From NCBI RefSeq assembly GCF_004104055.1, contig NZ_QOVJ01000002.1, positions 310,001 through 374,000 of the forward strand: DNA of 64,000 bases, written 5' to 3'. This stretch comes from Leeuwenhoekiella aestuarii. GTDB taxonomy: Bacteria; Bacteroidota; Bacteroidia; Flavobacteriales; Flavobacteriaceae. Every line of letters begins with the position of its first letter. Within the stretch, counting starts at the first letter, position 1. Both the position numbers and the translations under genes were made by a program. The notes beneath the pieces were generated by a model that was not told the origin of the DNA, searched no databases, and saw nothing but the letters and a program-made list of their open reading frames with translations. Positions 26,578-35,806 of the stretch are shown here, piece after piece.

Positions 26578-26589
26578 TAAAAACCATTT

Positions 26590-26621
26590 GTCTACACTTA
26601 ATTGCAACTCGTCTACACTTA
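26590..26621 (+). promoter_or_regulatory. Two 11-bp direct repeats with 21-bp period: candidate LytTR operator
   Basis: GTCTACACTTA occurs at 26590-26600 and again at 26611-26621, exactly 21 bp (two helical turns) apart. On the complementary strand, TAAGTGTAG fits the published LytTR half-site pattern at all but one position, with the usual 12-base spacer. It lies about 20-50 bases upstream of the promoter of the operon that ends in a LytTR regulator, so autoregulation is likely. Confidence 0.6.
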
Positions 26622-26639: not shown

Positions 26640-26674
26640 TTTGAAAGTATTAAATTCCATTTTATTGAAATTTG
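26640..26674 (+). promoter_or_regulatory. Candidate promoter of the H-NOX/FIST operon
   Basis: TTTG (26640-26643) and GAAATTTG (26667-26674; one half-site weaker than TAnnTTTG) are 23 bases apart. The start would fall near 26680, leaving a leader of about 40 bases that contains the CTCGA palindrome. Confidence 0.4.
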
Positions 26675-26722: not shown

Positions 26723-27139
26723 ATGCGCAAACGAGTATTATCTATTTTGCTGATTGAAGATGACCGTATTGAGGTTATGAAACTCAAACGTGTGCTTTCT
26801 AAAAATCAATTGAAACACCATCTGAACGAAGCTAAGAATGGTGAAGAAGCCTTAGAAGTATTGCGTGACAAAAGCAAATTGCCAGACATCATTCTTCTGG
26901 ATCTCAATATGCCTAAGATTAACGGGATAGAGTTTTTAAAAATTTTAAAAAACGATCCTGTACTAAAATATATTCCTACAGTAATTCTAACAACTTCTAG
27001 TAATCATAATGATGTAAAGCAGTGCTATGAGATAGGTATTGCAGGATACATATTAAAACCTTTAAAATATGAAGATTACGTAGATAAAATAAATGGTTTG
27101 TTGGAGTATTGGAGTCTTAATGAGTTAATTCATTTTTAA
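26723..27139 (+). CDS. Single-domain response regulator (CheY/Rcp1-like)
   Basis: This 138-residue stand-alone receiver has acidic residues Asp13/Asp14, phosphoacceptor Asp60 in IILLDLNMPKINGIEFL, Thr90/Thr91 and Lys112 in GYILKPLKY. There is no output domain. The PDIILLDLNMP-type sequence is common in receivers that pair with PAS kinases or bacteriophytochromes. Its stop overlaps the ATG of the H-NOX gene (TAATG), placing it first in the relay operon. It could be a phosphate sink or a diffusible output. Confidence 0.9.
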   Translation: MRKRVLSILLIEDDRIEVMKLKRVLSKNQLKHHLNEAKNGEEALEVLRDKSKLPDIILLDLNMPKINGIEFLKILKNDPVLKYIPTVILTTSSNHNDVKQCYEIGIAGYILKPLKYEDYVDKINGLLEYWSLNELIHF

Positions 27140-27705
27140 TGAAGGGAATTGTATTTACAGAGTTTTTGGAGTTAGTAGAAGAGAAGTTTGGATTAGAGAT
27201 GGTAGACGATATCATCACTGCTTCTGAGTTAGAGTCCGGCGGAGCATATACCGCTGTAGGCACTTATAAATTTTCAGAAATGGTACAGCTGCTTACGCAT
27301 TTAAGTGAGCGCACCCAGTTATCTGTAGATGATTTATTGTATACCTATGCATTGCATTTTTTTAAGGTTATTCAGCGTAGCTACCCGGGGCTATTAAATA
27401 CCTACTCAGATCCTATAGAATTGATTGCTTCTATAGAGAATCATATACACGTTGAAGTGCGTAAAATTTACCCTGATGCGCAGCTTCCTATTTTTAAAAT
27501 TGTAAAAAGGTCAGAAAATACATTAATTTTAGATTATCTTTCTAGCAGAGCGATGTATAGTTTTGGATTAGGATTGATGCACGAGTCGTTCAATTATTTT
27601 AATAAGAATTTTAAAATAGATTTTGAAAAGATAAAAGAAGATGGGACTTATGTACGATTTTTTATAGTCAATACAGATGAAAACAGCGAATCCGGATCTA
27701 TATAA
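27139..27705 (+). CDS. H-NOX (haem nitric oxide/oxygen binding) domain protein
   Basis: The 188-residue stand-alone HNOB protein begins with MKGIVFTEFLELVEEKFG. It has the proximal-haem histidine in NHIHVEVRK (His104 by alignment with the known family pattern) and the Y-x-S-x-R haem-carboxylate motif as YLSSR (133-137). The position occupied by the distal tyrosine in O2-binding H-NOX (five after the Arg) is Phe142, so it should be an NO-selective sensor. It overlaps the receiver gene upstream and the PAS kinase downstream by 29 bases, as H-NOX genes typically do with their kinase. Confidence 0.93.
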   Translation: MKGIVFTEFLELVEEKFGLEMVDDIITASELESGGAYTAVGTYKFSEMVQLLTHLSERTQLSVDDLLYTYALHFFKVIQRSYPGLLNTYSDPIELIASIENHIHVEVRKIYPDAQLPIFKIVKRSENTLILDYLSSRAMYSFGLGLMHESFNYFNKNFKIDFEKIKEDGTYVRFFIVNTDENSESGSI

Positions 27706-30061
27706 AAGAATTATTGAAAGAGAGCGTAAAGCCCGTAAAATCGCAGAATCTATTCTTGAAGAAAAATCTTCTGAACTTTACACGTTATCAAACAAATTAA
27801 AAAAATTTAACGAGCGACTTCAATCTTTAATTTATCAGAAAAATTCTGAGTTAGAAGGCTTATTTGAGAATCTTGCTGATGCTTATGTTGTTATTGATCT
27901 AGAGGGGCACGTTCTCAAAATGAACGATGCCGCAGTTTCTTTAATGGGCTATGATTCTAGTAAAGAGTTAGTTTTTTTACCTAAAATGGTCGCTAAAGGC
28001 GAGCAAGAACATGTTTCTGAGGCATTTATAAGTTTACTTAAGACCGGTAGCATGACCAATTTTAAAGTAAATATTATTACAAAAAGTGGAGAAACCCGCT
28101 TGGTTCACATAAATGCAAGCACCATTCTTGACGAAAATAACGTTGCTGTTGCAGCACAAGGCATTGTAAGAGACATTACTTCTGAAGAAAAAAAGGCAAA
28201 GATTATTGAAGAGCAAAAACGACAACTTGAGTTTATCGTTAATAGTTCACCATTAGGAATTGCACTTACTACAAATGGTCTCATAGAAAAATGTAATGAT
28301 AGTTTTACACGAATTCTGGGGTATCCTGAATCAGAAATTCTAGGTAAAAATCTAAAGTCTATTACTATTGCTGCTGAAGAATCTGATTATGAATCTCAAC
28401 GAGAAGCCTTACATAATGGTAAGTTAGATTCATTTGTAACTACCCAAAAATACATAACAAATAGCGGTCAGATCATCAGTACAAAAATTAATGTAAGTGC
28501 TATTCGACAGAGTGATTCTGTAATGCATCAACAGGAGGTGATCACTATTGAAGATGTAACTAATGAACTGTTAGCAAAAGAAAAGTTGGTTGAGTCAGAA
28601 AACAGACTTTCGGCTTTAATTTTAAAACTACAAAGCGGTGTTTTATTAGAAGATGAAAACCGGAAAGTAGTGCTTACAAATCCTATGTTTTGCGACATAT
28701 TTGGCATTCCGGCTTCACCTGGAGATATGGTTGGAGCAGATTGTGATGCAGCTGCAGAACAAAGTAAAATCCTCTTTAAAAAACCTGAAGAATTTATAAA
28801 ACGAATTTCAGAAATACTGGATAAGAGAGAAATTGTCACAGCAGAAGAACTAGAGCTTGTTGACGGAAGAGTGTTTGAACGTGATTTTATTCCTATTTAT
28901 TCTAACGGCAACTACACAGGGCACCTTTGGAGTTATACCGATGTAACACTTAAAAGACGTTATAAAAATAACCTGCAGCAACAAAAAGAGAAGTATAGCA
29001 ACATCATAGCTAATATGAATCTGGGTTTACTAGAAGTAGATACAGAAGATCATATTCTAATGGTAAATCAAAGTTTTTGTGATCTGAGCGGATATTCAGA
29101 AACTGAACTGGTTGGACAAAAAGCTGCAGAATTATTTATGCCCCCTAAGAGTAAAAAAATAATTCTAGATAAATTCAAATCTAGAAAACAAGGTGTTTCT
29201 GATTCTTATGAAGTTGAGGTATATCGCAAAAATGGAGAAAAAAGAAACTGGCTCATAAGTGGTGCTCCCAATTTTGATATCAATGGAAAGTTAGTTGGAA
29301 GTATAGGGATTCACCTTGATATTACAGAATTGAAAAATCTAGAAGCTCAAAAGGAAAAACTACTCAAAACTTTAGAAAAGAGTAATATAGAATTGCAAGA
29401 ATATGCACACGTAGTATCTCATGATTTAAAAAGTCCATTGAGAAGTATCAATGCATTAGCTAGCTGGATCAAAGAAGATAATGCAGAAACACTTGATGAA
29501 CAAAGTCTTGAAAATTTCAGCATTTTAGAAACGACCTTAGAGAAGATGGAAAGTTTAATTTCTGGCATTCTCAATTACAGTAGTATTCAGCTTGAAAGCA
29601 TACACGATGAGGCTACAGACGTTAATGAGGTTTTAAGCGATATTAAAGATCTTATTTTTATACCAGAACATATAGAACTTATTACCGCAAACGAGCTGCC
29701 GGTTATTCAAGTAGATAAAACCCGTTTGCAACAAGTTTTACAGAATTTAATAGGTAATGCTATTCGCTATTGCGATAAAGAAAAAGGCTACGTCAAAATA
29801 CATTATACCGAAGAAAAAGAATGTCATGTTTTTGCAGTAGAAGATAATGGGATTGGGATAGAGAAGGCATATCATCATAAAATATTCAATATTTTTCAGT
29901 CACTTACAGATCATAAAGAATCTACCGGTATCGGACTATCAATCGTAAAGAAAATCGTGAATCTGTATGAAGGCGATACCTGGTTAGAAAGTACTCCGGG
30001 ATCGGGTAGTACATTTTATTTCAGTCTTAAAAAAGAGCATAATGAAGATCAGACAAGGTAG
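27677..30061 (+). CDS. Cytosolic multi-PAS histidine kinase, presumed H-NOX partner
   Basis: This 794-residue kinase has no transmembrane segment. An N-terminal coiled coil (RERKARKIAESILEEKSSEL) of the kind seen in H-NOX-associated kinases is followed by about four PAS domains (near 55-165, 185-300, 310-425, 440-555). HisKA follows with His582 in VVSHDLKSPLRS, then an HATPase domain (NLIGNAIRYCD, DNGIGIEK, TGIGLSIVKK). It overlaps the H-NOX gene by 29 bases and the FIST gene by 20. The linkage suggests H-NOX inhibits or activates it directly; additional PAS inputs are unknown. Confidence 0.92.
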   Translation: MKTANPDLYKRIIERERKARKIAESILEEKSSELYTLSNKLKKFNERLQSLIYQKNSELEGLFENLADAYVVIDLEGHVLKMNDAAVSLMGYDSSKELVFLPKMVAKGEQEHVSEAFISLLKTGSMTNFKVNIITKSGETRLVHINASTILDENNVAVAAQGIVRDITSEEKKAKIIEEQKRQLEFIVNSSPLGIALTTNGLIEKCNDSFTRILGYPESEILGKNLKSITIAAEESDYESQREALHNGKLDSFVTTQKYITNSGQIISTKINVSAIRQSDSVMHQQEVITIEDVTNELLAKEKLVESENRLSALILKLQSGVLLEDENRKVVLTNPMFCDIFGIPASPGDMVGADCDAAAEQSKILFKKPEEFIKRISEILDKREIVTAEELELVDGRVFERDFIPIYSNGNYTGHLWSYTDVTLKRRYKNNLQQQKEKYSNIIANMNLGLLEVDTEDHILMVNQSFCDLSGYSETELVGQKAAELFMPPKSKKIILDKFKSRKQGVSDSYEVEVYRKNGEKRNWLISGAPNFDINGKLVGSIGIHLDITELKNLEAQKEKLLKTLEKSNIELQEYAHVVSHDLKSPLRSINALASWIKEDNAETLDEQSLENFSILETTLEKMESLISGILNYSSIQLESIHDEATDVNEVLSDIKDLIFIPEHIELITANELPVIQVDKTRLQQVLQNLIGNAIRYCDKEKGYVKIHYTEEKECHVFAVEDNGIGIEKAYHHKIFNIFQSLTDHKESTGIGLSIVKKIVNLYEGDTWLESTPGSGSTFYFSLKKEHNEDQTR

Positions 30062-31175
30062 TCTCAATGAAGCCAGAATATGGAAACATCTCAACGAAGA
30101 GGTAAAACTTGATGCACCTCTTGTTCTCATTTTTGCAAACAGACACTTGCTGGAAGAAGATTATATTTTTAGCACAATGCGGCATCTGTTTCCTAATGGG
30201 CATCTAGTTTATGCATCTACATCAGGAGAAATTTTGGGCGATCAGGTAAGTGATGGCGGGCTCGCTTATACGGCTATAGAGTTTGAGAATTCTACATTTA
30301 AAATAGTTTCTGAAAATATTTTGAATCACGAGAAAAACAGTATAGAAACAGGTAATATTCTTGCTCAAAAAATAGATAAAGCAAATCTCAAACACCTTTT
30401 TGTAATTGCAGAGGGTAGTTATATAAATGGCAGTGATCTCATAAAAGGTCTGGAGTCTGTATTGCCTGATGAGGTTGCCGTCACCGGCGGACTTTGTGGT
30501 GATGATGCACGGTTTGAAAAAACCTTGTGCGGGTATAACTCTAAAGCAAAAGCGGGAGAGGTGATTGCCATAGCATTGTATGGAGAATCGCTTGAAATTA
30601 GTTTTTCTAACTACGGCGGTTGGTTTGCTTTTGGTCCGGAGCGTACAATTACAAAATCTACAGGTAACATTCTTTATGAGTTAGATGATAAACCGGCTTT
30701 AGACTTATACAAAACTTATCTTGGAGATAAAGCAGCAGAGTTACCGCAAGCTGCTCTGTTTTATCCCTTGAGTGTGCATTCTGCGGAAAAAGAACATCCG
30801 GTTGTACGCACTATTTTAAATATTGATGAGACCGACAATGCGATGATTTTAGCAGGGGATGTTCCCGAAGGTTCGCGGGTTAAACTGATGATGGCTACAG
30901 TAGACGGTATTGTAGATGGTGCGCTTGAAGCGGCAAAAGCCGCAGTTGCAAAGCGAGAAAGTGCAGCCCAACTTGCCATTTTAGTGAGTTGTGTGGGTAG
31001 AAAACTAGTAATGGATCAACGGTCTGAAGAAGAAGTAGAAGAAGTTATAGAAATCGTGGGTAGTCAGGCAGCAATTACCGGCTTTTATAGTTATGGTGAG
31101 TTGTCACCTTTTGCCAATGAGCGCAGCTGCGAACTGCATAATCAGACTATGACATTGACCTTAATAAGCGAGTAA
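30042..31175 (+). CDS. FIST-domain sensor protein (NosP-like)
   Basis: The 377-residue cytosolic protein has FIST_N (about residues 20-215: LVLIFANRHLLEED, YASTSGEILGDQV, AVTGGLCGDDARF) and FIST_C (about 225-365: ALFYPLSVHSAEKEHPVVRT, ITGFYSYGELSPF). Some FIST proteins, called NosP, are haem proteins that sense nitric oxide and control a neighbouring kinase. Here the gene lies 0 bases before a kinase gene and overlaps another by 20 bases. Haem binding cannot be decided from sequence. Family call is strong; the NO role is inferred. Confidence 0.9.
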   Translation: MKIRQGSLNEARIWKHLNEEVKLDAPLVLIFANRHLLEEDYIFSTMRHLFPNGHLVYASTSGEILGDQVSDGGLAYTAIEFENSTFKIVSENILNHEKNSIETGNILAQKIDKANLKHLFVIAEGSYINGSDLIKGLESVLPDEVAVTGGLCGDDARFEKTLCGYNSKAKAGEVIAIALYGESLEISFSNYGGWFAFGPERTITKSTGNILYELDDKPALDLYKTYLGDKAAELPQAALFYPLSVHSAEKEHPVVRTILNIDETDNAMILAGDVPEGSRVKLMMATVDGIVDGALEAAKAAVAKRESAAQLAILVSCVGRKLVMDQRSEEEVEEVIEIVGSQAAITGFYSYGELSPFANERSCELHNQTMTLTLISE

Positions 31176-32240
31176 ATGAACCCACTTTTAAAAAGACAAA
31201 TACGCAAGCACCTTCAGGAAGAAGGTATCGTAATAGATGAGAAGTTTTCGGTCTTTTTGAATGCAGTGAGTAGTTCATATGCTAATTATGAAGAGCAGTT
31301 GTTAATGGTGCAACGGGCAATGTCTTTAAGTTCTGACGAGTTAGTCGAGGCTAATAAGAATTTAAAGAAAGAAAGTACACAGCAACGTGAGATCATAGAC
31401 AGTCTCACCCAGACTATCGCTAAACTTCAGAAATACGGAAATGCAGAAGAACTTCCTAAAATTAACGAAAATAAAAAGCTAGACGGGCTAGAGCTTGCGC
31501 GAGTTATAGAAAGTCAAACTAGAGAAATTATCAACTCTAATCAACAGCGTCAGGCCTTATTAGAAAAATTAGAAAAACAGAATAAGGAGCTTAATGATTA
31601 TGCTCACGTTGTTTCACACGATTTAAAATCTCCTTTAAACAATATCAATGCGTTAACTAATTTTATTCTAGAAGACGGAAATATTGATGAAGATGCTTCG
31701 CAAAATCTCAATTTAATTTTAGAGCACGTAGAGCATATGCATAGTCTTATTGAAGGAATTCTGGAGTATTCTGCCGTAGATAAAGCTGATGGTGACAGTT
31801 ACACCGTAGATCTGGATATTCTGGTCAAAAATCTTTTAGCTACGATGCACATCCCTGAAAATTTTGAAGTAGAAATTCAAAAAGAACTACCACTTGTTGA
31901 GGGTAACTCTTTTAGATTTCAGCAGTTATTTCAAAATTTAATACAAAATGCTATTCAGTATAATGACAAGGAGCTGGGGCATATTGCAATAGGATTTGAA
32001 GATGAAGTAGATTATTTTAAGTTCAGTATTAAAGATAATGGTAAGGGGATAGAAAAACAGTATCATGATAAGATTTTTCAGGTATTTCAAACGCTGGAAG
32101 ATGCTTCAAAATCGAAGGGAATAGGACTGTCTATAGTCTCTAAAATCATCAAATTTTATGGTGGAAAAATCTGGCTTGAATCTCAAACCGGCGAAGGAAC
32201 CACATTCTATTTTACAATTCCAAAATATAGTGATGGATAA
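31176..32240 (+). CDS. Cytosolic histidine kinase, presumed FIST partner
   Basis: This 354-residue kinase has no membrane segment or PAS domain. The N-terminal LLKRQIRKHL ... SSSYANYEEQLLMVQRAM region followed by LSSDELVEANKNL is the signature found in kinases encoded beside FIST proteins. The catalytic part has His148 in VVSHDLKSPLNN, NLIQNAIQYND, DNGKGIEK and KGIGLSIVSK. Its HisKA region is closely similar to that of the PAS kinase two genes upstream (both read YAHVVSHDLKSPL), so both may feed the same Hpt. It overlaps the Hpt gene by 8 bases. Confidence 0.92.
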   Translation: MNPLLKRQIRKHLQEEGIVIDEKFSVFLNAVSSSYANYEEQLLMVQRAMSLSSDELVEANKNLKKESTQQREIIDSLTQTIAKLQKYGNAEELPKINENKKLDGLELARVIESQTREIINSNQQRQALLEKLEKQNKELNDYAHVVSHDLKSPLNNINALTNFILEDGNIDEDASQNLNLILEHVEHMHSLIEGILEYSAVDKADGDSYTVDLDILVKNLLATMHIPENFEVEIQKELPLVEGNSFRFQQLFQNLIQNAIQYNDKELGHIAIGFEDEVDYFKFSIKDNGKGIEKQYHDKIFQVFQTLEDASKSKGIGLSIVSKIIKFYGGKIWLESQTGEGTTFYFTIPKYSDG

Positions 32241-32550
32241 TCCTAATCTTAATAAAATAAGAGAGATAGCTGGTGATCAGGTTGAATTTCAGAAAGAAAT
32301 GATAACCATCATAAAAGAAGAACTACCTGTTGAGGTTGAAGTTTATCGCAAAAACCTGAATGCAAAGTATTTTCTTAAATCTGCAGAAGATGTTCATAAA
32401 TTAAAACATAAAATAAGTATCTTGAACATGGCAAATAGCTACGAGCTTGCCATAAACTATGAGAATGAACTACGAGCTGGTAACCCTGAACTGGCCGGGC
32501 AATTTGAAGAAACACTTCAAAATATGCTTGATTTTGTAGCAAAATTGTAA
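32233..32550 (+). CDS. Stand-alone Hpt (histidine phosphotransfer) protein
   Basis: Starting at the ATG within the end of the kinase gene (8-base overlap) gives a 105-residue, all-helical protein; a longer frame from 32158 adds residues that merely translate the kinase gene out of frame. The phosphoacceptor is His55 in HKLKHKISILNM, matching the Hpt pattern HxLKG except that the Gly is replaced by His59. It would relay phosphate between the two kinases and one or both receivers of the operon. Confidence 0.82.
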   Translation: MDNPNLNKIREIAGDQVEFQKEMITIIKEELPVEVEVYRKNLNAKYFLKSAEDVHKLKHKISILNMANSYELAINYENELRAGNPELAGQFEETLQNMLDFVAKL

Positions 32551-32557
32551 CCTACTT

Positions 32558-33271
32558 ATGAATTGTATTATTATTGATGATGAGGCTTTAGCACGCGCCA
32601 TAATTCGCAACCATTGTGTAAAAGCTGATGAATTAGAGGTCTTAGAAGAATTTTCAAATGCTATAGCTGCCATAAAATATTTAAATCAGAATACAGTAGA
32701 TCTCATTTTTCTGGATATACACATGCCAGATTTTACAGGTTTTGATTTTATTCAGACATTAAAGAATCCACCAAAAATTGTTTTAACAACTTCAGACCGC
32801 AATTTTGCAATTGAAGCTTTTGAGTATGATTGTATTGTAGATTATTTAGTAAAACCGGTCGGGTTACCGCGTTTTCTTAAAGCAGTTCAAAAAGCAGAAC
32901 AATTTAAGCCGATAACGGCTAAAACGGCTGAACCAACTGCTAAAACTAGTGATGCTGAAGGAAATGACCTCTATGTGAATATCGACCGTAGGTTGATCAA
33001 AATTAACTTTGATAGTATTTTAATCATAGAAGCAAAAGGCGACTACATTCTTATTAAAACGGAAGGTAAAAATTATACGGTACATTCTACTCTAAAAAAG
33101 ATAGAAGACAAACTACCGGAAAGTAAATTCTTAAAAATTCACCGGTCTTATGTGATTAATTTCCATAAGATTATCGATATAGAAGACAACAGTGTGTTGA
33201 TAGCAAAAGATGTTATACCCATAAGTCGCTCTAACAGACCGATTTTAATGAAAAGACTTAATTTGCTTTAA
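32558..33271 (+). CDS. LytTR-family response regulator
   Basis: The 237-residue protein has a receiver with Asp7/Asp8, phosphoacceptor Asp53 in LIFLDIHMPDFTGF and Lys99 in DYLVKPVG. A linker rich in Thr/Ala/Lys leads to a LytTR DNA-binding domain (IEAKGDYILIKTEGKNYTVHS, then FLKIHRSYVINFHKI). It is the terminal gene of the relay operon and the only DNA-binding output visible. Direct repeats with LytTR geometry lie upstream of its own operon and of the next gene. Confidence 0.94.
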   Translation: MNCIIIDDEALARAIIRNHCVKADELEVLEEFSNAIAAIKYLNQNTVDLIFLDIHMPDFTGFDFIQTLKNPPKIVLTTSDRNFAIEAFEYDCIVDYLVKPVGLPRFLKAVQKAEQFKPITAKTAEPTAKTSDAEGNDLYVNIDRRLIKINFDSILIIEAKGDYILIKTEGKNYTVHSTLKKIEDKLPESKFLKIHRSYVINFHKIIDIEDNSVLIAKDVIPISRSNRPILMKRLNLL

Positions 33272-33281
33272 AGCTTCTTTC

Positions 33282-33314
33282 TTACCATTCAGCTACACCT
33301 TTTTACCAACGAAC
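33282..33314 (+). promoter_or_regulatory. TTACCA direct repeats with 21-bp period: second candidate LytTR operator
   Basis: TTACCA occurs at 33282-33287 and 33303-33308, exactly 21 bp apart. Extended half-site ACCATTCAG matches the published LytTR pattern at 8 of 9 positions; the second half-site is weaker. The site lies about 50-75 bases upstream of the expected start of the DUF4114 gene. Confidence 0.45.
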
Positions 33315-33345
33315 GATTAATAAATAAATCCGGGTAAATCTCTTC

Positions 33346-33353
33346 TAATTTTG
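33346..33353 (+). promoter_or_regulatory. TAnnTTTG -7 box of the DUF4114 gene
   Basis: TAATTTTG lies 17 bases before the ATG at 33371. No -33 element is evident, consistent with activator dependence. Confidence 0.45.
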
Positions 33354-33370: not shown

Positions 33371-35806
33371 ATGAGTCAGTTGCTACGGATCAGTTTTTTA
33401 TTAATTACAGCTGTTAGCCTTGCGCAGAATTTTAACTATCTAGGTGATTATACAGCAGACGGAACTCCACTTTATCTGGAGAAAGAGAACGATGTGGTTA
33501 CTACAGAAACTTTACAGTTAATTGCAAATTCGTTACCCGAGTCGTTTCCTGTACCGGTTTACAATCCGCATTATATTTCGAGCGGTTATGATACTGATAT
33601 TATTTTGCACGACGATGCTGAGGTATATGTGACCTTTGTAGCTGAAGGTGCAGGGTACAAGAATGTCTTGGGGTTTTATACGTATGATATTGATAAGCCT
33701 TTAAATCGCAAACCTTATCAGCACGAGATCACAATTGTTTTTCCCAATGTTTCTGCAAAATGGTCTGGTGGTAGTCTTGAGGCTGGTAATAAGGTAAAAT
33801 TGGGTTCTTTTAAAGCAGGTACCGGCATTGGCTGGGTGTTGCTTGCAGATGCCTGGAAGTCTGAAGTGACGTGGGGATTGTGGCAATTATTTTCAAATCA
33901 TTCTTTTAATCCTGAAGCAGCTGCTGATTTAAAATATCACAATGTGCTACTCAATGATCCTCAAAATCAACGTATAATTTTAGGTTTTGAAGATATCAGA
34001 AGAGATTATGGTTCTTGTGATAACGATTTTAACGATGCACTTTTTTATGTGACTGCGAACCCGTATAGTGCTTTAGAAACTAAAAATTATGCAGATGTAG
34101 ATTCTGCTACAAAAGTAAATTCTGCTTACGATGGCGGTCTGGAGAGTAATGGAGATTTAGCAAGTCTTATCGCAAAGCGGAATTTACAACGCAGCAAAAA
34201 TCCGGTAAAACTGAATAAGAGAGCTTTTCAATCTAAATTCAGCTCTAAAGCAACTTCACAAAAAAATGGAAAGACTAGTTTGGGAAGTTATTTCCCTGAA
34301 ACGGCAATGTTTGGCACAGAAAGCGCTTCGGTTTCAAGTCCTGAAGATTTAATGGGAATTACAAACGCAGCAGAGGTTTTTGCAGTGGATTATTACAGCG
34401 GTTCAGACCGTGTTGCTGCAGGGTTGCTATTAGAAACTGAAGGTCGCGTTTACGATCATTCTAAAACAATTTGTGATCGGTTAAACGGTTCGTCGCTTGA
34501 AGATGTGCGAACCTTCCGCCTTGCGGGTCACGAGTTCATTTTAGCAAAGATCAAACGTGTAAACAGAGATTTAGAATATGCTGTAAGTTTTTCGGTTAAT
34601 CAAAAAGCGTCATCTCAAACACTATTCAGTTATTGGAATATAGATCAGTATCCAACCGGTGATTATCTTAATTTTCAAATCTGGGGGAAATCAGTAGGGC
34701 AGGTGAGTACCTTAATCAATCATATTCTGGAAACACTAAATCACGATAACCAACTCCAAAAGAATACAGAGCCTGTTAATCTTCCGTCAGTTTTTGTGAA
34801 AAGCGGCTATTATGACCGAGGAGCTCTATATCTCAATATCATGAACAAAATCGGCAAACGCAATATAGTTGCAAATACAGAATACCACAAAACAGAATTA
34901 GATGGTCTTTCAATAACTTCAGAAAACATCACTTTGAGTGGTATTTTAGAAGAGCAATTGGTTTTAGAAACGGGCTATTTATTTGATGCAGGTGTTTCCC
35001 TTTATGATACGGAGACTAACACATACGATGCCTTATATTTAGCTGATGGCCCGTGGGGAATAGATTATAATGCTAATGAAGTTTCGATTACCGATTTTAA
35101 AATCAAAACACCACAGATTCAAACTTCTGAGGATAATTATCCTGTTGAACGTGGCGTGGTTTTAGAAGCTGGAGTAAAAGGTACACTGAATATTTTTAGA
35201 CATATCCTCGCCGGCGCACTTGCATTGAATGTGAGTGACCTATCTGCTGTTGAGTTTAATATTCAAAGCAATACACCGGTAGAAGTGATTCTGGTTCCGG
35301 CAGATTTAGAAAACTGGGAAAACCGTTTGCGGTATACAATTCCTGCAAATAGCAATAAGAAATTTTATGCGATCCCTTTTGAAGAGTTTAAAGATGCTTC
35401 CGGAAATTCTCAACCCGTTACTGCGATACGTAGTGTTGTATTTTCAATTCACGGAGATTATGTTTCGTTTGAGAAAATGAAGGTTGAAGCTTCAGAATTG
35501 GCCTTCAGTACTAATAAAACCTTGAGAGTAGAAGAGATTATTCAGCAGTCTGAAATAGCAACCGCTGTGAGTTATCCCAATCCATTTACAGATTATACGA
35601 TAATCAAAGTGCCGGAGAACACCTCAGAGGTGGTTCTGACCCTGGTTGATATGAACGGTCGTAAAGTAGCTGAGAAAAAAGAAAAGACTTCAGGAAGAAG
35701 CGATCGTTTTCGTGTAGAGCGTGATGGTTTAGCTTCGGGATATTACAATTATATGGTTACCACAGATTCAGGAAATACGTATAAGGGGAAGCTTTTGATA
35801 AATTAG
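33371..35806 (+). CDS. DUF4114 protein with T9SS sorting domain (secreted)
   Basis: This 811-residue protein has a signal peptide (to about residue 19, SLAQ). A DUF4114 domain at about 120-235 has the acidic motif GFEDIRRDYGSCDNDFND, which is probably calcium binding. A long middle region without recognised domains follows. The C-terminal T9SS type A sorting domain (YPNPFTDYTIIKVPE ... GYYNYMV ... GKLLIN) directs export to the cell surface. It follows the LytTR gene by 99 bases, behind a candidate LytTR operator and a -7 box, and is ended by a strong terminator. A matrix or adhesion role is plausible. Confidence 0.88.
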   Translation: MSQLLRISFLLITAVSLAQNFNYLGDYTADGTPLYLEKENDVVTTETLQLIANSLPESFPVPVYNPHYISSGYDTDIILHDDAEVYVTFVAEGAGYKNVLGFYTYDIDKPLNRKPYQHEITIVFPNVSAKWSGGSLEAGNKVKLGSFKAGTGIGWVLLADAWKSEVTWGLWQLFSNHSFNPEAAADLKYHNVLLNDPQNQRIILGFEDIRRDYGSCDNDFNDALFYVTANPYSALETKNYADVDSATKVNSAYDGGLESNGDLASLIAKRNLQRSKNPVKLNKRAFQSKFSSKATSQKNGKTSLGSYFPETAMFGTESASVSSPEDLMGITNAAEVFAVDYYSGSDRVAAGLLLETEGRVYDHSKTICDRLNGSSLEDVRTFRLAGHEFILAKIKRVNRDLEYAVSFSVNQKASSQTLFSYWNIDQYPTGDYLNFQIWGKSVGQVSTLINHILETLNHDNQLQKNTEPVNLPSVFVKSGYYDRGALYLNIMNKIGKRNIVANTEYHKTELDGLSITSENITLSGILEEQLVLETGYLFDAGVSLYDTETNTYDALYLADGPWGIDYNANEVSITDFKIKTPQIQTSEDNYPVERGVVLEAGVKGTLNIFRHILAGALALNVSDLSAVEFNIQSNTPVEVILVPADLENWENRLRYTIPANSNKKFYAIPFEEFKDASGNSQPVTAIRSVVFSIHGDYVSFEKMKVEASELAFSTNKTLRVEEIIQQSEIATAVSYPNPFTDYTIIKVPENTSEVVLTLVDMNGRKVAEKKEKTSGRSDRFRVERDGLASGYYNYMVTTDSGNTYKGKLLIN

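Follow-up and report, generated by a model that had tools for sequence, protein, structure and literature searches.

In Vibrio harveyi, an H-NOX protein controls the kinase HqsK, which feeds the shared phosphotransferase (Hpt) LuxU and the DNA-binding regulator LuxO (PMC6769237, in excerpt). An H-NOX-controlled kinase, a shared Hpt and a DNA-binding regulator are likewise predicted in the window, that is, the whole 64,000-nucleotide stretch of Leeuwenhoekiella aestuarii DNA analysed here. The V. harveyi pathway differs in having a hybrid kinase with its own receiver and, through LuxO, an output in quorum sensing, whereas the window combines a stand-alone receiver, a LytTR output, a putative EPS regulon and an optional FIST kinase in one operon. 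The same layout is known from the Spo0F/Spo0B sporulation relay, in which a separate receiver and a phosphotransferase stand between several kinases and one regulator; there, signals, phosphotransferase and output are all different.

Vibrio cholerae NosP/VpsS/LuxU and Burkholderia NosP/NosK/NosR resemble the window, in the excerpts describing them, in placing a FIST-family gene beside a kinase without a sensor domain. Here, however, the FIST protein scores far under the NosP cut-off, no c-di-GMP output domain is present, and the gene sits in an H-NOX operon. Control of polysaccharide-locus transcription by an H-NOX-regulated kinase has a precedent in Vibrio fischeri, where H-NOX/HahK acts on syp (PMC8738867, in excerpt); as far as the excerpted account goes, it does so through other regulators and syp is apparently unlinked, while here EPS genes adjoin the relay in 46 of 56 genomes. 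RcoM and CoxC couple gas sensing to a LytTR output at direct repeats, as proposed here, and in the excerpt describing them (PMC11347149) are one-component CO sensors operating without a phosphorelay and without NO. Finally, Lee-Lopez and Yukl 2022 reported, as a neighbourhood statistic, that FIST genes occur near group 1 H-NOX (PMC8738867, in excerpt), a group that includes Cellulophaga algicola (PMC7108781, in excerpt). The excerpt of PMC8738867 holds the neighbourhood statistic only, with no mention of operon, relay, LytTR, operator or EPS, and we found no report of the relay, its operator or its EPS link in the open-licence PMC literature. The occurrence of H-NOX beside FIST is, accordingly, already known (PMC8738867, in excerpt); what is new is the output of the relay, i.e. 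the operator and the EPS link.

Gene content and conservation of the operon

The seven relay genes are encoded on a shared strand (Table 1), with overlaps of 1, 29, 20, 0 and 8 bases and a gap of 7, exactly as the initial annotation had it. The junction figures hold if the Hpt starts at ATG 32233 and not at the mechanical ORF start at 32158; 10 of 13 aligned relatives start at or beside the position equivalent to 32233. All seven proposed genes were recovered, but not the proposed end point of the set: the next gene, encoding a DUF4114 protein, is preceded by the same operator. In Pfam searches RR1 matched Response_reg at 85.9 bits, the LytTR regulator matched Response_reg at 64.2 and LytTR at 70.6 bits, and HK1 carried PAS_9 in four stretches as well as HisKA and HATPase_c. 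An NCBIfam search of the seven proteins assigned no equivalog.

Table 1. Features of the relay locus and of the gene that follows it (window coordinates)
Feature	Position	Strand	Description
Candidate operon operator, tandem half-sites with 21-bp period	26582..26621	+	Exact 11-base repeat at 26590 and 26611
-7-like element TGAAATTTG	26666..26674	+	TTTG within one base of the typical position in relatives
RR1, stand-alone receiver	26723..27139	+	Response_reg; phospho-Asp D60; probable relay intermediate
H-NOX haem sensor (predicted)	27139..27705	+	HNOB; H104, Y133-x-S135-x-R137, Phe at 142
HK1	27677..30061	+	Four PAS, HisKA, HATPase_c; without receiver
FIST sensor protein (putative)	30042..31175	+	FIST and FIST_C
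HK2	31176..32240	+	N-terminal region without called domain, HisKA, HATPase_c; without receiver
Hpt phosphotransferase	32233..32550	+	Phospho-His is H80 counted from 32158, H55 from 32233
LytTR response regulator	32558..33271	+	Response_reg and LytTR; phospho-Asp D53
Second, weaker candidate operator before the DUF4114 gene	33283..33322	+	Pair score 17.6; third match in own genome, E 0.25
-7-like element TAATTTTG	33346..33353	+	23 bases past the operator pair
DUF4114 protein, secreted, T9SS sorting domain	33371..35806	+	Pfam/NCBIfam; probable direct target

A search for a conserved HNOB-FIST pair in flavobacterial genomes, suggested by the initial annotation, found the pair linked in relatives. 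Among 296 genomes of the order, FIST is present in 51, HNOB in 33 and both in 22, and in 12 of these 22 (window included; count from two lists) the two genes are at most 4 kb apart, which is more than chance. We then compared loci of relatives, compiled as flanks fetched from genomes plus 80 named FIST loci, among which Leeuwenhoekiella palythoae is closest to the window with 68% identity. All seven genes occur in 58 fetched loci, 55 of them with a distinct FIST, which bears out the proposal that two sensors, two kinases, the Hpt and the LytTR regulator form one operon. The exact order of the window, with no inserts, is found in 51 loci, and the median junctions of the 55 distinct seven-gene loci range from -1 to +12 bp.

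Variants of the locus are of several kinds: H-NOX without FIST (receiver, H-NOX, kinase, Hpt, RR-LytTR; L079, L080, L081 and L117), FIST without H-NOX (e.g. L089, L095, L168, L175, L186-L188, L194 and L195), an extra kinase (L062, L064, L181 and L183) and a doubled FIST-HK pair (L163). Therefore, the receiver, H-NOX and HK1, the FIST and HK2, and the Hpt and LytTR regulator behave as three modules. The module of FIST and HK2 is optional, as only 13 of the 20 held-out H-NOX/EPS loci (described below) have FIST; the dual-sensor relay is thus a conserved two-sensor operon of which the FIST-HK2 pair is not a fixed part. In one genome (G231; L072 and L073) a region of receiver, H-NOX, Hpt and LytTR is doubled about 57 kb apart, with near-equal scores.

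Sensors and the route of phosphate

The window H-NOX matches the Pfam family HNOB at 129.1 bits, against a cut-off of 25.5. The proximal His (H104), Y133 and S135 are kept in all 55 distinct loci and R137 in 53, with Lys in the other 2; the window has all four residues. The distal Tyr is absent in 55 of 55, and a Phe stands at the usual place (142) in the window protein. Absence of the distal Tyr in H-NOX favours NO over O2. Judged by these residues, the window H-NOX is haem-competent. Its best solved relative is PDB 6bdd/6bde, the H-NOX of Kordia algicida (PMC7356049); in both PDB files the H-NOX carries aldolase as its molecule name. Another H-NOX subfamily, with about 23% identity, occupies the same operon slot in 20 of the 55 distinct loci (L062-L065, L071, L139, L140, L142 and L143 are among the loci of this kind). 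The presence of two unrelated subfamilies in one slot suggests that conservation applies to the H-NOX signal itself.

The window FIST protein matches FIST at 134.7 and FIST_C at 120 bits (Pfam), and its fold matches the FIST of FBXO22 and, more weakly, the small-molecule enzymes chorismatase and cyanuric acid hydrolase; a sequence search of the PDB gave no credible match. The closest NCBIfam model is that of NosP (NF041558), which the protein reaches with 54.8 bits versus an equivalog cut-off of 450, and all 54 FIST proteins of set A1 match this model weakly. Of the original description as a NosP-like FIST, the FIST domain and fold stand, while assignment as a NosP equivalog is ruled out by the cut-off; that the protein is a haem sensor of NO is, on its sequence, unproven. 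H366 is kept in all 76 near FIST proteins and in 48 of the 52 far ones. Residue 152 is Cys in 75 of the 76 closer-group proteins versus 1 of the 52 others, and the protein also has two cysteines common to FIST proteins at large and a histidine close to its C-terminal end.

The residues of a complete phosphorelay are all present in the translations: kinase His (H-box HDLKSPL), receiver Asp, Hpt His and output Asp. RR1 D60 and K112, the phospho-His of the Hpt (itself scoring 22.3 bits, below the Pfam curated cut-off of 24.6) and D53 and K99 of the LytTR regulator are each kept in 55 of 55 loci. Pfam detects no receiver domain in HK1 or HK2. Since Hpt proteins receive phosphate from receivers and not from kinases, neither kinase can by usual chemistry charge the Hpt directly, and RR1 is the natural donor. 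Most likely, then, the stand-alone receiver feeds the Hpt in a His-Asp-His-Asp relay; with both kinases lacking receivers, it is better read as a likely intermediate than as a second output. Across the fetched clusters, a stand-alone receiver is found near 86 of 100 with non-hybrid kinases versus 14 of 33 with hybrid kinases; this complementarity is a trend only, and operons of the window type make up much of the non-hybrid group. An apparent one-protein fusion of kinase, receivers and LytTR (L127, 7772-10963) is an artefact and was not counted, as its intervening part is not in frame in the record.

A probable tandem-repeat operator and its predicted targets

The repeats upstream of the operon recur in relatives with a fixed period. 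In 70 distinct promoters of relay operons, whether or not these include H-NOX or FIST, the mean self-match at period 21 was 9.09 of 11 versus 7.22 +- 0.11 in shuffles; the other periods from 11 to 44 gave means of 6.8-7.3, so that the only peak is at 21, and a self-match of at least 9 of 11 was seen in 48 of the 70 promoters versus 1-9. For the DUF4114 promoters (n=32) the mean at period 21 was 8.00 versus 7.14 +- 0.18, with at least 9 of 11 in 10 of them. The fitted half-site motif is TACCATTCGTCTACACTTA; a pair is carried by 65 of the 70 relay promoters, and the motif score is low in five. As the PWM was fitted to the relay promoters that it scores, what carries weight for the operator is the period scan, the promoters of DUF4114 and control genes, the window-free model R1 and the held-out loci. 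A pair score of at least 15 was reached by 24 of 32 DUF4114 promoters versus 13 of 354 promoters of other genes, and the 12 other-gene promoters reaching 20 include those of five EPS genes and one Wzz-like capsule protein. On both strands of the 64-kb window, the best two non-overlapping sites are those of the operon (45.3; in the fit) and of the DUF4114 gene (17.6). A third, weaker half-site lies in phase with the operator pair.

The Bacteroidota -7 consensus is TAnnTTTG. It occurred 36 times after 89 sites, at an offset of 44-45 in 27 cases and of 23-25, i.e. one period less, in 7; in shuffles the total was 4.3 occurrences, and no 5-base window had more than 4. It is missing behind 22 of 39 listed sites, including both passing EPS sites of the window genome. 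In published LytTR sites, two 9-bp repeats stand at a distance of 10-13 bp (PMC11347149, in excerpt), and such sites are often found upstream of autoregulated operons (PMC6193735, in excerpt). The window-type promoter has this geometry of direct repeats of about 9 bp spaced 10-13 bp apart, often with a fixed offset to the -7 element. Among 108 loci, a site is present in 90 of the 93 with a LytTR orthologue and in 10 of the 15 without LytTR in the fetched stretch; in L074, L075, L077, L078 and L323 the site is at the locus and the LytTR regulator elsewhere in the genome, and L175, L186-L188 and L198 have the site with LytTR absent from the fetched stretch. By association, the tandem 21-bp repeats are the probable LytTR operator. 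The LytTR output, set down by the initial annotation as an oddity, thus comes with a recognisable operator and a probable EPS and surface regulon.

To locate further sites we scanned the organism's own 4.43-Mb genome with model R1, built from 44 sites with those of the window left out. The operon site ranked first (E 1.1e-8) and the DUF4114 site third (E 0.25), while matches 2, 4 and 7 of 9 (E 0.05, 0.41 and 0.89) fell within 2.7 kb of each other on contig C3; taken alone, the DUF4114 and EPS sites of this genome are weak (E 0.05-0.9). The EPS cluster lies at about 622.7-636.4 kb of C3, a contig other than that of the operon, and encodes a TPR protein, a STAS protein, a flippase (Polysacc_synt_3), a glycosyltransferase, a GH5-like hydrolase, an Ig-like protein, a GT2 and a 1033-aa protein that has no Pfam domain and looks like a membrane protein. 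Its orthologues adjoin the relay in the same arrangement in G079, G109, G286, G133, G102, G256, G191 and G153, and partly in G271; of 73 relay loci, 36 have EPS genes in their short flanks, or 32 without GT2-like-only cases. In a test of 30 genomes at E <=0.01, sites were found in 13 of 15 relay genomes versus 1 of 15 without H-NOX and FIST, with 29 matches versus 1 (21 versus 1 without 8 training sites). The lone match among the relay-less genomes (G167) is at most 1 kb from an orphan LytTR orthologue. No site scoring at least 15 was found in the EPS clusters of G072 and G206.

Several further arrangements were observed on the side. A 400-aa Response_reg-GT2 fusion (L261, 18512-19714) stands at the EPS cluster edge right behind an operator, and a 395-aa Response_reg-Bac_transf fusion (L260, 16971-18158) also at an EPS cluster edge; such receiver-glycosyltransferase fusions could perhaps put sugar synthesis under direct phospho-control. 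In L260 (G064) operators precede a capsule cluster of another kind (Wzz-like, Wzx, Wzy, glycosyltransferases and UDP-glucose dehydrogenase), and in L173 (10590), L174 (10534) and L185 (10789) they precede a gene for a 164-aa lipoprotein-like product near the relay.

The 1033-aa protein served as a marker of the EPS cluster. Of the 296 genomes 14 carry it, and each of these belongs to the 33 with H-NOX and also has a LytTR orthologue, with identities of 52-100%. The second sample covered 233 genomes from 232 genera of the family; H-NOX was present in 87 of them and the marker in 62 (two in pieces or partial): both in 56, the marker alone in 6 of the 62, H-NOX alone in 31 of the 87 and neither in 140 (Fisher p = 1.8e-24, kinship ignored). 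The two samples share G000, G030, G079, G102, G109, G133, G201, G271 and G286. H-NOX and the marker are at most 40 kb apart, with a median of 16 kb, in 46 of the 56 genomes; the genus of the window (G000 and G429) is among the ten unlinked cases, and both of its genomes keep the EPS-cluster sites. As a held-out set we took 20 of the 46 linked loci in handle order, after setting aside five loci used earlier and one copy that is broken; none of the 20 is near-identical to earlier loci, and counts were made by eye. The operator was found before the relay in 19 of the 20 and LytTR in 19 of the 20. Of the 17 stretches extending to the EPS cluster, 14 have a site there, and a site precedes DUF4114 in 9 of 11. 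The exception, L304, has LytTR absent from the stretch and no site at all; in L306 the first two relay genes are hidden by an opposite ORF.

Working model and alternative readings

Gene content, conservation, ligand and phospho-site residues, operator, and EPS co-occurrence and synteny were established by computation; from them we infer the phosphate route, activation rather than repression, and NO as the signal. In the model, H-NOX, binding haem and NO, would control HK1, and FIST, where present, would control HK2. Either kinase would phosphorylate Asp60 of RR1, from which phosphate would pass to the Hpt His and on to Asp53 of the LytTR regulator. The regulator would then bind the tandem half-sites of 21-bp period immediately before the -7 element, activating its own operon, the gene for the secreted DUF4114 protein and the dedicated EPS cluster. 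NO-bound H-NOX inhibits its kinase in V. harveyi (PMC6769237, in excerpt), and if this inhibition holds here NO would lower expression of EPS and surface genes, favouring release from the biofilm. The sign of the NO effect is thus guessed by analogy with V. harveyi H-NOX/HqsK, and the FIST ligand is likewise a guess. We consider it probable that the locus is a self-contained, autoregulated, NO-responsive phosphorelay controlling EPS and surface genes directly through LytTR. The GGDEF search, the only one made on this point, found the domain in 0 of 16 relay genomes, and the proteobacterial c-di-GMP route is therefore unlikely.

The relay and its control of EPS could be as described with NO not the main signal, H-NOX being a redox or haem sensor, FIST binding another small molecule and the PAS array providing the main input. 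V. cholerae H-NOX can respond to oxidation without haem (PMC8738867, in excerpt), the window FIST is by cut-off not NosP and has the fold of FBXO22 and, more weakly, of small-molecule enzymes, HK1 has four PAS, and NirK was not found in the window genome, which therefore has no obvious NO source of its own. (NirK is above cut-off in 32 of 296 genomes, and 3 of the 12 genomes in which H-NOX and FIST are linked, G079, G231 and G256, are among them; the own genome has two COX1-family matches, one of which reads as a fused cbb3 subunit.) Yet the proximal His and the Y-x-S-x-R/K motif are kept in 55 of 55 loci, the distal Tyr is found in none of the 55, and two unrelated H-NOX subfamilies share one slot, and we regard a main signal other than NO as unlikely.

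A little less likely still is a different wiring, in which the stand-alone receiver serves as a phosphate sink or as a second output like CheY, LytTR takes its phosphate straight from the kinases and the Hpt runs in reverse. The sub-threshold score of the Hpt (22.3 versus 24.6) would fit such wiring, as would L118, where two receivers and RR-LytTR come after an H-NOX kinase of the non-hybrid type and no gene was called as Hpt. It sits badly, however, with the retention of both RR1 and Hpt in the H-NOX-less L089, L095, L168, L175 and L186-L188, and with L121 and L125, in which the H-NOX-linked kinase is a fused HK-receiver-Hpt that precedes RR-LytTR. Least of all do we expect that some other regulator recognises the repeats and that the EPS cluster merely travels with the relay, which we consider very improbable. 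The motif was found computationally, and 10 of the 15 loci whose fetched stretch lacks LytTR have a site; against this stand the 21-bp direct-repeat geometry, which fits the published LytTR site (PMC11347149, in excerpt), the site in 90 of 93 LytTR-orthologue loci, its absence from L137 and L304, which both lack LytTR at the locus, and the single site in G167, without H-NOX/FIST, within 1 kb of an orphan LytTR orthologue.

Control of biofilms by NO is known mainly from proteobacteria, mostly via c-di-GMP. Returning to the NO-responsive LytTR relay, we lean, somewhat more guardedly than for the relay itself, towards a broader reading: that Flavobacteriaceae have a transcriptional NO/biofilm switch without c-di-GMP, in which an H-NOX phosphorelay with a plug-in FIST-kinase and an exchangeable H-NOX drives, through LytTR, an EPS locus and secreted surface proteins, and which has been carried along with the EPS locus across dozens of genera. 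With FIST optional and H-NOX exchanged, the relay offers a natural experiment in how sensors plug in to a common pathway. A large polysaccharide-active family seems to have a complete pathway from sensor to gene, with a testable operator, targets and parts.
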